DNA of 64,000 bases from Streptomyces luomodiensis. GTDB lineage: Bacteria > Actinomycetota > Actinomycetes > Streptomycetales > Streptomycetaceae. The DNA lies in NCBI RefSeq assembly GCF_031679605.1, contig NZ_CP117522.1, positions 9,176,001 through 9,240,000 on the forward strand, read 5' to 3'. Positions 27,436 to 58,862 of the stretch are shown here, one piece after another. The notes under the pieces are model-generated. The model did not search any database. It was not told the DNA's origin and worked only from the letters and a program-made list of their open reading frames with translations. Numbering within the stretch: the first letter of the stretch is position 1; the number at the start of each line of letters is the position of its first letter. Position numbers and translations under genes: made by a program.

Positions 27436-29688
27436 GTGGCTGGGCGCATGACCGTGTGCATCATCGGTGCACCCCGTAGGACCCTGGCCGCCACCTTCCT
27501 CCTGCTCGCGGTGGCGGCGGTCGTCGCGGTTCCGGTCATGGGCAAGCTGTCCGCGGGTGGGTTCAGGGACCCCGGCGCCGAGTCGTCCCGGGCCACCACC
27601 GCGCTCGCCGATACGTTCGATCAGGGGAAGATGCAGTTGCTGCTGACGGTCACCGCGCCGGGCGGGGTGGCCGGGAGCGCGGCGCGCACGGCGGGCAGCC
27701 GCATCGTCGAAGAGCTCGAGCAGTCACCGCACGTCGCCTCGGTGTCCTCGCCGTGGACCGCTCCCGGACCGGCCGCCGCCACGCTGACCAGCAAGGACGG
27801 CGACACCGGCCTCATTGCGGCCGGCCTGTACGGCGAGGAGAACGACGCCCAGCGGTACGCCCGGGACCTGGCCGACAAGGTGACGGGCACGGCCGACGGT
27901 GTGGTGGTCAAGGCCGGTGGCGGGGCGATGCTGTACTCGCAGATCCGGGAGCGCAGCGAAGCGGACCTGTCCTTCATGGAAGCCGTCGCCACCCCGTTGA
28001 GCCTGCTCGCCTTGATCTGGGTGTTCGGCGGACTGGTGGCCGCCGGGCTGCCGCTCGCGGTCGCGGTGGTGGCCATCGCGTGCGCGGCCGCGGCGCTGCG
28101 CCTGCTCACCATGGTCACGGAGATATCGGTCTTCGCGCTCAGCCTGGCGACCGCGCTGGGGCTCGCCCTCGCCATCGACTACACCTTGCTGATCATCAGC
28201 CGGTTCCGCGACGAGCTGGCCCGGCGGGAGTCCATCGAACACGCGGTCGTCCGGACCATGTCGACGGCGGGCCGGACCGTGCTGTTCTCGGCGAGCACCG
28301 TGATCCTGTGCACGCTGCCGATGCTGCTGTTCCCGATGAGTTTCCTGCGGTCCATGGCCTACGCCGCGATGCTCGTCGTGGCGTTCGCGGCAGCGGGGGC
28401 GCTGGTGATCACACCCGCCGCGATGACGCTGCTCGGCCACCGGATCGAGTCCTGGAACCTCAAGACGCCCGTACGCCGCCTCTTCGGCCGGAGCGGCCAT
28501 CCGGTCCGCCGTACGGAGGACACCTTCTGGTACCGGAGCACCAAGGCGGTGATGAGGCGGCCGCTGGTGACGGCCGTGGCGGTCACCGCGGCCCTGCTGC
28601 TCCTCGGCTCGCCCTTCCTCGGCGTGCGGTACGGATTCCCCGACGACCGGGTGCTCTCCTCGTCCGCGTCGGTACGCGAAGTGGGCGACCAGTTGCGCGA
28701 GGACTTCACCGTCAACCCGCAAGCCGCCGTCTCGGTGGTCCTCAAGGACACCCGCGACATGACGCCGACGCAGCTGGGCGCGTACGCGGCCGCGCTGTCC
28801 CGGGTGCCTGGTGTCACCTTCGTGGCGGCTCCTGGCGCCACCTTCGTCGACGGCGAGCGGTCGGCGGGACAGTCGGCCGGCGCCGGAGCCGAGGGAAACG
28901 CCGCGTTCCTCACCGTCGCGAGCGCCGCGCCCGTGTTCTCCGCACAGTCGGAGAAGCAGCTGGACGGCCTGCACGCGGTGCCGGTCCCCGGCGACGCGCA
29001 GGTGATGTTCACCGGCACCGCACAGGTCAACCGGGACAGCGTCGACGCCGTCACCTCCCGCCTCCCCCTGGTGATCCTGCTGATCACGATCGTCGCGCTC
29101 GTGCTGCTGTTCGCGGTCACCGGGAGCGTGCTGCTGCCGCTGAAAGCCGTGGTGCTGGACATGATCTCGCTGTCGGCGGCGTTCGGAGCGCTGGTCTGGA
29201 TCTTCCAGGACGGCCATCTGGGGGCGCTCGGCACGACGTCGGTCGGCACGCTGGTGATACAGACCCCGATCGTGCTGTTCTTCATCGCCTTCGGCGTGTC
29301 CATGGATTACGAAGTGTTCATCATGTCCCGCATCAAGGAGTACTGGAAGAACTCCGACCGCACCGACGAGGCCAACGCCGAAGCCGTGGCGCGCGGGCTG
29401 GCACGCACCGGGCCGGTGGTCACCGCCGCCGCGGCGATCATGACCATCTCGTTCGCGGCACTGATCGCGGCTCAGGTGTCGAACATGCGGATGCTCGGTT
29501 TCGGGCTCATGGTGGTGGTGCTCGTCGACGCCACCCTGGTGCGGATGCTGCTCGTGCCAGCGTTCATGAAGATGCTGGGCAGAGCGAACTGGTGGGCTCC
29601 CCGGCGGCTGCGCGCGTGGCACGACCGGTGGGCGATCTCCGATGACGGCGCGGTCGCGCCGGTGCGGACGGAAGTGCCGGTCGGCTGA
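27436..29688 (+). CDS. MMPL-family (RND superfamily) transporter
   Basis: 750 residues from GTG 27436, with GAGGGGG upstream. Two repeats each have one span, a large extracytoplasmic loop and a block of five spans: first span LAATFLLLAVAAVVAVPVM, block 1 around residues 180-330, block 2 around 540-720. The proton-relay motif is ALAIDYTLLIISRFRDEL in the first half and FGVSMDYEVFIMSRIKEYW in the second. MMPL proteins export lipids and polyketide lipids, often encoded next to the fatty-acyl-AMP-ligase PKS that makes the cargo, as here. It probably exports the cluster product. Confidence 0.93.
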   Translation: MAGRMTVCIIGAPRRTLAATFLLLAVAAVVAVPVMGKLSAGGFRDPGAESSRATTALADTFDQGKMQLLLTVTAPGGVAGSAARTAGSRIVEELEQSPHVASVSSPWTAPGPAAATLTSKDGDTGLIAAGLYGEENDAQRYARDLADKVTGTADGVVVKAGGGAMLYSQIRERSEADLSFMEAVATPLSLLALIWVFGGLVAAGLPLAVAVVAIACAAAALRLLTMVTEISVFALSLATALGLALAIDYTLLIISRFRDELARRESIEHAVVRTMSTAGRTVLFSASTVILCTLPMLLFPMSFLRSMAYAAMLVVAFAAAGALVITPAAMTLLGHRIESWNLKTPVRRLFGRSGHPVRRTEDTFWYRSTKAVMRRPLVTAVAVTAALLLLGSPFLGVRYGFPDDRVLSSSASVREVGDQLREDFTVNPQAAVSVVLKDTRDMTPTQLGAYAAALSRVPGVTFVAAPGATFVDGERSAGQSAGAGAEGNAAFLTVASAAPVFSAQSEKQLDGLHAVPVPGDAQVMFTGTAQVNRDSVDAVTSRLPLVILLITIVALVLLFAVTGSVLLPLKAVVLDMISLSAAFGALVWIFQDGHLGALGTTSVGTLVIQTPIVLFFIAFGVSMDYEVFIMSRIKEYWKNSDRTDEANAEAVARGLARTGPVVTAAAAIMTISFAALIAAQVSNMRMLGFGLMVVVLVDATLVRMLLVPAFMKMLGRANWWAPRRLRAWHDRWAISDDGAVAPVRTEVPVG

Positions 29689-29735
29689 CATCGGTACGGC
29701 CTGTGTCGATCAACAACGCTGGAGAGGTGAAACGG

Positions 29736-56600: not shown

Positions 56601-58862
56601 AAGTGCGACGCGCTGGAGGAGCTGATGCTGCGGGCGCCGTTGGTGTTGCCTGCCGAGGGCGGGGTGCGGATCCGGGTGGTCGTCGGCGACGTCGGCCAGA
56701 CCGGTCGCCGTCCGGTGGCAATGTACTCCCGGAGCGGGGAGGCAAGCTGGGTACTTCACGCCCAAGGCGTTCTGGGCCCTGCCGCAGTTCCGCGCTCCCC
56801 GGCGGACACCACGGACCTGTCGGTGTGGCCACCCGTGGAGGCGGTCGCTGTCGACATGACCGATGTCTATGGGCGTCTGGCTGATCGTGGCTATGAGTAC
56901 GGGTTTGCTTTTCAGGGGTTGCGTGCGGTGTGGCGGCGGGGTGAGGAGTTGTTCGCCGAGGTTTCTCTTCCGCGGGAGATGGAGGTGAGCGACCTCGGGG
57001 TGCATCCGGCGTTGCTGGATGCCGTGTTGCATGCGGTGGTGGTGGCTGCTGGTGGGGTGGAGATGGCGCTTCCGTTCGCGTGGGAGGGGGTGTCGTTGTG
57101 TGCGGCGGGTGCGGTGGCGGTGCGGGCGCGGATCGCGCCGGTGGGGCCGGGTGCGGTGTCGGTGGAGTTGGCGGATACTGCGGGCCTGCCGGTGCTCTCG
57201 GTGCGGTCGATGACGTCTCGTCCGGTGTCCCCGGAGCAGCTGCGGGCAGCGGTCGAGGCCGCTGGTGGGGTGTCGGACCGGTTGTTCGAGGTGGTGTGGT
57301 CGCCCGCGTCGGTTGGTCAGTCCGGTGCGGCGGGCGGTGGGGCGGATGTGGTGGTGTTCGAGGTGGGGTCGGGGTCGGATGTGGGGGTGGTGGCGGGGGT
57401 GTACGAGGCCACGCACCGCGTGCTGGGGGTTGTGCAGTCCTGGTTGTCGGGTGCGGCGGTCGGCAAGCTGGTCGTTGTCACACGTGGGGCGGTGGGTCTG
57501 CCCGGCGAGGGTGTCGTTGATCTCGCCGGGGCGGCGGTGTGGGGTCTGGTGCGCTCGGCGCAGACGGAGAACCCCGACCGGATCGTTCTCGTCGACACCG
57601 ACACCGACACCGACACCGACACCGACACCGACCCCGACACCGACACCGACGCTGACGTCGACATCGCTGCGATCCTCGCCACCGGTGAGCCACAGCTCGT
57701 CGTTCGTGCCGGAACGCTTTACGCTCCGCGTCTGAGCGGGGTGCCGGTCACCTCCGCCCGTCCGACGCCCGTCGGCTCGTTGGCTGAGGGCACGGTGTTG
57801 GTCACCGGTGGTACGGGCATGGCCGGTGGGGTGCTGGCCCGGCACCTGGTGAAGGCGCACGGCGTGCGTCACCTGCTGCTGGTGAGCCGTCGCGGTGAGC
57901 GGGCCGATCGTGCCGCGGAGCTGCTGGCGGAGCTGTCGGCGTTGGGTGCACAAACCCAGATCGTGGCGTGTGATGTGGCCGACCGGTCCGCGTTGGAGCG
58001 GGTGCTGGCGGACATCCCGGAGGACCGGCCGCTGGCCGGAGTGGTGCATGCGGCCGGTGTGCTGGATGACGCGGTGATCGGCTCCCTGACACCGGAACGG
58101 ATCGACACGGTGCTGCGGGCCAAGGTCGACGCCGCATGGAACCTGCACGAGGTGACGCGCGATCTGGGCCTGTCGATGTTCGTGCTCTTCTCTTCCATGG
58201 CGGGGACGGTCGGCGCACCGGGCCAGGGCAACTACGCCGCCGCCAACACCTTCCTCGACGGCTTGGCAGCCCACCGGCGTGCCCTCGGGCTGCCCGCGGT
58301 CTCGTTGGCGTGGGGTCTGTGGGCCGAGGCCGGTGGCGTGACCGGCATGAGCGGGCACTTGGGAGCCGCGGACCTGGCCCGGATGAGCCGCAACGGCCTG
58401 CTGCCCATGCCCGCCCACGAAGCGACCGAACTCTTCGACACGGCACTCGCCACCGACCGCGCGAACCTCGTGCCCGCACACATCAACCGGGCGGCGGTCG
58501 AGAGTGCGGTGCAGGTGCCACCGCTGTTCCAGGCCCTGGTACCGACTGCCCACCGGCGCACGGTGCCGCAGAAGCCCGACGCGGACCTGCCGGATCTCAC
58601 CGCCCTGAGCGTCGAGGAACGCCGAGCCCGATTGACCGCCATCATCCGTGAAGAAGTCGCCATGGCTCTGGGGCATGACGGCCCGGATGACATCGACCCG
58701 GACGCTCGTTTCGAGGAACTGGGATTCGACTCGATGAGCGCCGTCGAGTTGCGAAACGCCATGACGGCCGTCGTCGGGCGCCCGCTGTCTCCCGCGTTGG
58801 TGTTCGAGTACGCGACAACCGCCGCCCTGGCGGACTATCTGGCGACGGAACTGGTGTCGTAG
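53691..58862 (+). CDS. Type I PKS, module 4 (KS-AT-DH-KR-ACP), no release domain
   Basis: 1723 residues; its ATG (53691) shares a base with the PKS2 stop. The N-terminal coiled coil ([20 protein letters not shown]) is a docking domain. KS 35-455 has Cys204; AT 560-837 has Ser650 in GHSVGE and HAFH 747-750 (malonyl-CoA); DH 910-1183 has His946 in [12 protein letters not shown] about 1366-1596 is B-type ([14 protein letters not shown]); ACP has Ser1681 ([12 protein letters not shown]). The protein ends about ten residues after the ACP ([10 protein letters not shown]). There is no thioesterase, reductase, condensation or C-terminal docking domain, so release needs a separate enzyme. The predicted end is an alpha,beta-unsaturated thioester. 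Confidence 0.94.
53792..56200 (+). repeat. KS-AT repeat copy C (module 4)
   Basis: Matches module 2 (about 42279-44690) almost base for base over KS and the malonyl AT, except a patch at about 54093-54226 and short stretches near 54710 and 55200 where codons become GC-rich and the protein differs. Confidence 0.88.
57594..57647 (+). repeat. GACACC hexamer repeat, 6+2 units (module 4)
   Basis: Six GACACC units, one GACCCC and two more GACACC: (Asp-Thr)6-Asp-Pro-(Asp-Thr)2. It is the longest of the three homologous arrays. Confidence 0.9.

Follow-up and report, generated by a model that had tools for sequence, protein, structure and literature searches.

A nine-gene operon of Streptomyces luomodiensis probably specifies a non-azoxy polyketide amine that is oxidised on nitrogen. 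The operon lies at positions 27436-58862, on the + strand, of a 64,000-nucleotide stretch of DNA (the window; bases 9176001-9240000 of a single-contig genome of 10,044,493 bases). It is best read as an aliphatic azoxy-type pathway in which the VlmH-type flavin N-hydroxylase and the genes for N-N bond formation would have gone and an AurF-type diiron enzyme with a DUF4873 partner would stand in for them. The parts that a first-pass annotation had named in this DNA were all recovered, in the order it gave and on one strand, by Pfam matches to MMPL, AurF, DUF4873, Aldedh, Aminotran_3 and Polyketide_cyc, followed by a polyketide synthase (PKS) protein with a fatty acyl-AMP ligase (FAAL) and by PKS2 and PKS3. 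Since the nine co-directional genes are separated by only -1 to 53 bases (refined starts), they likely form a single operon. The genes are listed below (ALDH, aldehyde dehydrogenase; ORF, open reading frame; ACP, acyl carrier protein; KS, ketosynthase; AT, acyltransferase, with MM for methylmalonyl and M for malonyl; DH, dehydratase; ER, enoylreductase; KR, ketoreductase; TE, thioesterase).

27436..29688, + strand: predicted MMPL-family exporter (Pfam MMPL, 7e-81)
29736..30662, + strand: predicted AurF/CmlI-type diiron N-oxygenase, 308-residue form starting at an ATG in an ORF that opens at 29703 (Pfam AurF, 1e-88)
30674..30964, + strand: DUF4873 protein starting at a GTG within ORF 30407-30964, probable partner of AurF (Pfam DUF4873, 3.7e-26)
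30985..32589, + strand: ALDH-fold enzyme starting at an ATG within ORF 30901-32589, presumed acyl-thioester reductase (Pfam Aldedh, 1.4e-65)
32620..33876, + strand: class III aminotransferase with motif VGKGLSG (Pfam Aminotran_3, 1.1e-89)
33892..34383, + strand: SRPBCC protein (Pfam Polyketide_cyc, 1.8e-16)
34406..42106, + strand: PKS1, FAAL-ACP-KS-AT(MM)-DH-KR-ACP (Pfam and motifs)
42160..53691, + strand: PKS2, KS-AT(M)-DH-KR-ACP and KS-AT(MM)-DH-ER-KR-ACP, starting at an ATG; the start given in the ORF list, 41332, lies too far upstream (Pfam and motifs)
53691..58862, + strand: PKS3, KS-AT(M)-DH-KR-ACP, no TE (Pfam and motifs)
26146..27195, + strand: ArsR-type helix-turn-helix regulator that may control the cluster, 240 bases upstream of the MMPL gene (Pfam HTH_20/HTH_5)

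The AurF-type enzyme and its probable DUF4873 partner

The product of the second gene passes the curated cut-off of Pfam family PF11583 (297.6 versus 29.6 bits). Its seven diiron ligands E104, E135, H138, E184, H211, E215 and H218 (numbering of the ORF from 29703) are kept in all 20 aligned rows, and the ligand list published for DnfA, AurF and CmlI has the same set in the same order (PMC9478400; here and below, statements on cited papers refer to the portions of those texts that were accessible). The last four ligand columns of a profile of the window protein aligned to AurF. When a structure model of the protein was used in fold searches, chains of CmlI and AurF were the sole PDB matches at E <= 0.001, and the list ranked by Z was led by AurF and CmlI chains (18.7 and 17.6, with the next fold at 15.8); families missing from these lists were not counted as excluded. 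By Pfam, ligands and modelled fold the protein is of the AurF/CmlI type, and it is predicted to oxygenate the nitrogen of an amine.

The adjacent DUF4873 gene is the one match to its family in the genome at E <= 0.001. Among the best 120 relatives of the AurF protein listed, 41 have DUF4873 fused to AurF. In a model of the fusion, DUF4873 forms a six-strand beta domain (pLDDT 71, pTM 0.59, a model whose domain packing is not trusted). A second AurF site in the same genome (contig 1, 6546696-6548677) holds two divergent AurF-family genes, 37% and 22% identical to the window AurF, and no DUF4873 match was found at that site.

Enzymes of this family have been described with several kinds of nitrogen substrate. 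AurF and CmlI take arylamines to nitro compounds and DnfA acts on a hydroxylamine (PMC9478400), AzoC is a diiron N-oxygenase that yields a nitroso compound in azoxymycin formation (PMC6783550), and HamC oxidises valine held on a carrier protein of a non-ribosomal peptide synthetase (NRPS; PMC11659414). Amide N-hydroxylation is proposed for LitN (PMC10616846) and action on an amide for ActI/MatA, while TsnB7 acts on glutamine with a helper. As the range takes in arylamines, amides and carrier-bound valine, the window enzyme could reasonably act on an aliphatic amine, whether free or bound to a carrier. The fragin/valdiazen ham (pvf) system resembles the operon in directing an AurF homologue, HamC, to an aliphatic alpha-amine and in its predicted aminotransferase HamG and polyketide cyclase/dehydrase HamE; it differs in its NRPS-tethered valine, in its diazeniumdiolate product and in having no PKS among the seven genes described (PMC11659414).

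The sole experimentally examined pair of AurF-like and DUF4873 proteins that we found is LitN/LitO of lipothrenin, encoded in that order in a FAAL lipid pathway (PMC10616846). Deletion of litN abolished and deletion of litO reduced N-hydroxylation, and deoxy amides were formed (PMC10616846). The window pair could act in like manner, the amine being acylated first by a host or unlinked enzyme and the amide then being N-hydroxylated to a hydroxamate-type lipid. This route seems unlikely, since no condensation, ligase or acyltransferase gene for the acylation was recognised by Pfam in the operon, and since the AurF gene occupies the position that, in related gene clusters (see below), is taken by enzymes whose proposed substrate is the free amine. 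Lipothrenin further differs in its proposed substrate, the Thr amide of a 16:0 dioic acid, and the accessible part of its gene list includes neither an ALDH/aminotransferase cassette nor a modular PKS (PMC10616846).

The ALDH, aminotransferase and SRPBCC cassette in other genomes

A first search with the ALDH protein covered 100 genomes including its own, of which 12, that is 11 others, had a match at E <= 1e-40. Four of the 11 (loci L019-L022) carry the same aminotransferase nearby, at 48-50% identity. An SRPBCC gene (36-41%) was called in three of the four; it was uncalled in L020 and is present in its twin, L071. The two flavoproteins put to Pfam, those of L020 and L022, are acyl-CoA-dehydrogenase-like, and members of that superfamily can be N-oxygenases, ChmG being an example (PMC10849742). 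When named genomes were scanned with an alignment of ALDH proteins, 246 relatives turned up, and 80 of these were kept (L030-L109). Each locus spans up to 10 kb on each side and absences hold within the locus, L078 having 1.6 kb upstream. Cassette members were counted by tblastn; the codon-composition gene caller misses or mis-strands some genes (the aminotransferase in L017, ALDH and aminotransferase in L030, AurF in L145).

The aminotransferase was found in 71 of the 80 ALDH loci and the SRPBCC gene in the same 71, on the ALDH strand; one of the nine loci without the aminotransferase (L051) lies at a contig end. A VlmH-like flavoprotein is present in 68 of the 71, and the order ALDH-VlmH-aminotransferase-SRPBCC is found in 66 (VlmH-, VlmA-, VlmB- and VlmJ-like are labels given from Pfam family and context, not from comparison with the Vlm proteins). 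Fifty-seven of the 80 loci encode a VlmO-like protein, which in every case keeps D51, H82, H110 and D114, the counterparts of the iron-binding residues reported for VlmO (PMC11705231). A VlmA-like gene occurs in 29 of the 80 and a VlmB-like gene in 52, the latter (p326) being a weak VlmB marker, labelled by its place and by a sub-cut-off AurF Pfam match (5.9e-5) and missing from two PKS-type relatives. Compared with the VlmO-bearing loci, the window ALDH is 42-58% and the aminotransferase 47-62% identical, on the same strand and in the same order. Judged by these sequence comparisons, ALDH, aminotransferase and SRPBCC genes are a cassette that marks aliphatic azoxy-type loci, though it is not limited to them. 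For azodyrecin, the proposed roles are formation of the aldehyde by Ady2 and of the amine by Ady4, and N-hydroxylation by the VlmH-type flavin enzyme Ady3 (PMC9379638). The SRPBCC gene accompanies the aminotransferase beside ALDH in 71 of 71 loci, a constancy which suggests that it is needed for a step in amine formation; the accessible main text on azodyrecin names neither an Ady5 nor an SRPBCC protein (PMC9379638). Four loci from the marine gammaproteobacteria Rheinheimera and Pseudoalteromonas (L047, L048, L052 and L065) have the order ALDH-VlmH-aminotransferase-SRPBCC, with no VlmO in the locus.

AurF together with DUF4873 was found in one of the 80 loci, that of Streptomyces sp. S465 (L030). 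Aminotransferase and SRPBCC genes occur without VlmH in three of the 71 loci, namely L030, which has the AurF and DUF4873 genes, L078 and L094; among the 71 loci, AurF thus occurs only where VlmH is missing. This distribution, the preserved set of three His and four carboxylate ligands and the standing of AurF and CmlI as the only significant PDB fold matches, with the top Z scores, all argue against a carbon-directed role for the enzyme, in which it would hydroxylate or desaturate the chain and the product would be an ordinary amine. The fold lists do include other ferritin-like diiron enzymes that are carbon oxidases, and a plain amine is possible because the cassette exists without a recognised N-oxygenase in L078 and L094, neither of which shows a VlmH or VlmO match within the locus. 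On balance we consider oxidation of carbon improbable. Locus L078 is from S. milbemycinicus and L094 from Streptomyces sp. NBS 14/10; both have KS-like genes with the cassette, the Pfam matches in L094 being KSIII and pentapeptide. Loci of this type possibly encode a plain alkyl amine pathway.

The cassette enzymes themselves carry the motifs GSGQVC (ALDH, its Cys invariant across an 11-row family alignment) and VGKGLSG (aminotransferase), the latter of which we take to contain the pyridoxal phosphate lysine. The best named NCBIfam models and PDB matches of the ALDH protein are aldehyde dehydrogenases, as would be expected if the enzyme oxidised its substrate, or the cassette degraded an amine, and the product were a carboxylic acid without chain nitrogen. 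We give this reading very little weight: all 25 NCBIfam scores listed are well below cut-off (best 167.9 versus 521 bits), the family sits in azoxy-type loci, Ady2 being the proposed source of the aldehyde in one such pathway, and the PKS has no other release domain.

For the aminotransferase, the best NCBIfam model is putrescine aminotransferase and the third is PigE (3.3e-95, 320.1 of 850 bits), both under cut-off; PDB matches include putrescine aminotransferase (1.2e-76) and 4ppm (7.3e-65). PigE of prodigiosin also combines a reductase with a class III aminotransferase, as does TamH of tambjamine. However, the window aminotransferase remains under the PigE cut-off, the PigE pathway has no N-oxidation, and its cassette is not the nearest one. 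The first-pass annotation had offered tambjamine and aureothin as parallels; azoxy-type clusters are nearer, including those of Saccharothrix and Nocardia that bear PKS genes, the latter with a FAAL-PKS.

The closest known kind of pathway, by sequence, is the aliphatic azoxy pathway, the operon being a variant of it in which the N-oxygenase has been swapped and no N-N genes are recognised. Azodyrecin (ady), valanimycin (vlm) and KA57-A (azx) share with it an aldehyde-forming enzyme, an aminotransferase and N-oxidation of a chain amine (by proposal for azodyrecin), and the azx cluster, listed as 'azoxyalkene and type I PKS', shares the type I PKS as well. According to the accessible descriptions, these pathways use a flavin VlmH-type N-hydroxylase and then VlmA, VlmO and VlmB types to make the N-N bond, whereas the operon has AurF and DUF4873. 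Closer still are PKS clusters of Saccharothrix sp. NRRL B-16314 and Nocardia ninae (L148 and L151-L152), with 56-58% identity in ALDH, 55-61% in the aminotransferase, 44-53% in SRPBCC and 69-70% in KS. The Saccharothrix cluster comprises MMPL, ALDH, VlmH, aminotransferase, SRPBCC, VlmO, three PKS, VlmA, a VlmJ-like kinase, a flavin monooxygenase and MmgE/PrpD; that of Nocardia ninae has ALDH-VlmH-aminotransferase-SRPBCC, PKS, VlmA-, VlmO- and VlmJ-like genes and a FAAL-PKS running off the contig. Both differ from the operon in their VlmH-, VlmA-, VlmO- and VlmJ-like genes, and no AurF match was found in the loci fetched. From their gene content they likely make azoxy polyketides, and we found no description of either in searches of the open-licence PMC literature.

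Exchange of the N-oxygenase and probable loss of the azoxy genes

All genes from the regulator through FAAL are present in Streptomyces sp. S465 at 96-100% protein identity, the regulator being 99% identical and adjacent there too, and another genome of the same species as the window has AurF at 99% identity. Searches with the AurF, ALDH and aminotransferase proteins, in each of which the best 120 matches were listed, returned all three from contigs of 73825 (Streptomyces sp. NPDC014733), 8309 and 10886 bases, and AurF plus ALDH from one of 4411 bases. Matches on contigs of equal size were taken to share a contig, an assumption that the strain name makes firm for the 73825-base one. The identities move in step (AurF 88, 80, 66 and 65%; ALDH 84, 83, 65 and 64%; aminotransferase 85, 76 and 62%). 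The gene arrangement is therefore not a chance one, as it is found in S465 at 96-100% and as three other records have AurF, ALDH and aminotransferase at 62-88%. MMPL-like genes, 28-30% identical over part of their length, likewise lie upstream of ALDH in two Saccharothrix relatives (L032 and L042, by Pfam for L042).

An ALDH tree of 54 rows groups all six that carry the label AurF into a single clade (100/100), although for P0126, one of these, no AurF is shown on the contig. The sister group (92/88) of this clade consists of 17 rows; both Saccharothrix VlmH clusters are among them and are the members whose gene neighbours were examined, and Nocardia ninae falls outside. In an AurF tree of 34 rows, poorly resolved elsewhere and with three long branches, a single clade (100/100) unites the linked proteins with two near relatives that are unlinked, and its deepest division is that of the ALDH tree. 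The simplest history suggested by these sequences is that AurF and DUF4873, from a mycobacterium-like source, entered a PKS cluster of the VlmH type that lost its flavin hydroxylase and its genes for N-N formation, the direction of exchange following from the general presence of VlmH outside the AurF clade. There is precedent for an N-oxygenase swap in chalkophomycin, where a heme enzyme takes the place of a diiron domain (PMC10849742).

The genome was searched with VlmA, VlmO and VlmJ queries from the Saccharothrix genome, with that of Nocardia ninae as an independent control. No match to VlmO or VlmJ was found in the genome (control 1.0e-34 and 1.6e-78, respectively); the best VlmA match was 29% identical (7.2e-8, in a 731-codon frame; control 8.9e-102), and a second VlmA query, run with no control, gave nothing at 1e-10. 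No VlmH-type flavin N-hydroxylase was found in the operon, and the best match in the genome was 28% identical (5.9e-8), in a search that had no control genome. The VlmJ-like query belongs to the diacylglycerol kinase family. The VlmB-like p326 query had no match in this genome, and it also missed those of Saccharothrix and Nocardia, in which VlmO-like genes are present. An azoxy product made by the known route was dropped as the best reading, since the genome searches gave no match for VlmO or VlmJ and matches for VlmA and VlmH that were only weak. The AurF protein was also considered as a VlmB equivalent and rejected; BLASTP aligned it with p326 at 23% identity across 146 columns, and p326 has no His opposite H211.

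An azoxy group might still arise without these genes, if AurF generated nitroso and hydroxylamine forms that condensed into a symmetrical azoxy dimer, on the model of AzoC and its arylamines in azoxymycin. AzoC sets the example in forming a nitroso compound (PMC6783550), and dimerisation of an aliphatic hydroxylamine has been envisioned for malleobactin D (PMC9379638). The operon, however, has no redox partner for the coupling that Pfam could recognise. Moreover, an aliphatic nitroso compound that has an alpha hydrogen usually rearranges to the oxime. The chance of such a dimer is slim.

The assembly line and the proposed pathway

An AMP-binding enzyme and an ACP precede the first KS, the layout of a FAAL-primed modular PKS. 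FAAL is named from this domain order; proteins in other genomes match it at identities of up to 58%, which does not separate it from an acyl-CoA ligase. The AT domains of modules 1-4 have the motifs YASH, HAFH, YASH and HAFH, which we take to denote methylmalonyl, malonyl, methylmalonyl and malonyl units. The catalytic His and Asp are kept in all four DH domains, the KR of module 1 is without the LDD motif, and neither a TE nor a terminal reductase domain was recognised at the end of PKS3 by Pfam and motif reading of the PKS proteins. Provided that all domains work, the predicted chain is R-CH=C(Me)-CH=CH-CH2-CH(Me)-CH=CH-CO-S, as had been put forward in the first-pass annotation. The AT, ER, KR and DH motifs agree with this structure, and the module 1 KR and DH (see below) call for caution. 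The PKS genes (window 40001-60000) have strongly positive GC skew and negative AT skew, unlike the remainder of the window.

From the gene content and order, the motifs, the cassette and the exchange read in the sequence we infer the following reactions, including the starter acid, the substrate of the AurF-type enzyme and the final oxidation state. FAAL would activate a fatty acid and load it on the first ACP, and the four modules would extend it to R-CH=C(Me)-CH=CH-CH2-CH(Me)-CH=CH-CO-ACP. Because the PKS is without a thioesterase, the ALDH-fold enzyme may release the chain reductively, from acyl-ACP or acyl-CoA, as the aldehyde, which the class III aminotransferase would convert to an allylic primary amine with the assistance of the SRPBCC protein. 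The AurF-type enzyme and DUF4873 would then bring the nitrogen to the hydroxylamine level or beyond, an unsaturated oxime or nitro compound being plausible, and the MMPL protein would export the product. Most likely this product is an allylic amine on a methyl-branched polyene chain, with its nitrogen oxidised. A more specific proposal appears to us possible at best: that AurF and DUF4873 took over from the flavin N-hydroxylase and from all of the N-N genes and oxidise the free PKS-derived allylic amine repeatedly, to a methyl-branched polyene that ends in a nitro, oxime or nitroso-derived group.

Several observations weigh against the proposed pathway. No VlmO was found in the locus in 11 of the 68 VlmH loci, so that the cassette is not confined to azoxy products, and the Vlm-type labels have the basis in family and context stated above. 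A profile of the AurF protein reaches an E value of 0.013 at best against PDB sequences, which makes the protein a remote family member, and AurF relatives in the literature examined act on arylamine, amide, glutamine, hydroxylamine or NRPS-tethered amino acid, none on a free alkyl amine. In the AurF tree the cassette rows alone form no clade, as two relatives with no ALDH shown fall inside. Outside the cassette, AurF is closest (48-60%) to a single family, f6, which is mycobacterial by its named matches, and in the 13 stretches fetched (12 with the AurF gene called) no aminotransferase or SRPBCC match was found. Finally, the DH motif of module 1 is altered, with Asp in place of Gly.

The 13 mycobacterial-type stretches (L135-L147) have AurF homologues nearly all of family f6, some fused to DUF4873. 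They contain a 23% ALDH match in two and a 32% flavoprotein match in one. Luciferase-like, short-chain dehydrogenase/reductase and phosphoglucose isomerase neighbours recur in 8 or 9 of the 13, Pfam having been run on one stretch (L135); this context was rejected as a clue to function, there being no common cassette.

The first-pass annotation had proposed FAAL-primed polyketide synthesis, reductive off-loading, transamination and N-oxidation by AurF. That scheme gains from the azoxy-type cassette and from the ligands and fold of AurF, and it remains conjectural as to the oxidation state of the nitrogen and the free amine as substrate. Its claim that no known pathway follows this logic holds for the combination: no described pathway joining these elements, nor such a product class, was found among the entries listed in searches of the open-licence PMC literature, some listings being capped (for example at 25 of 117, 20 of 39 or 15 of 23 entries). 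It does not hold for AurF with DUF4873 in a FAAL lipid pathway, for which LitN/LitO is the precedent. The nocuolin A (noc) pathway also has FAAL, an acyl-ACP reductase, an aminotransferase, an N-monooxygenase and PKS; as far as its accessible description goes, it differs in being cyanobacterial, in its NRPS, in NocN/NocO, which are distantly similar to AurF, and in its 1,2,3-oxadiazine product.

These results suggest that a release cassette for reductive amination, made up of ALDH, aminotransferase and SRPBCC genes, pairs with differing nitrogen chemistries: a flavin hydroxylase and N-N formation in azoxy-type loci, a diiron oxygenase in this operon and, in two loci, no recognised N-oxygenase. 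The exchange of the N-oxygenase allows a direct test of the action of AurF-family enzymes on aliphatic amines and of the contributions of the DUF4873 and SRPBCC proteins. The outcome would inform on the mycobacterial AurF proteins, often fused to DUF4873, that are the nearest relatives outside the cassette, and the operon itself hints at a class of N-oxidised polyketide lipid that has yet to be described.

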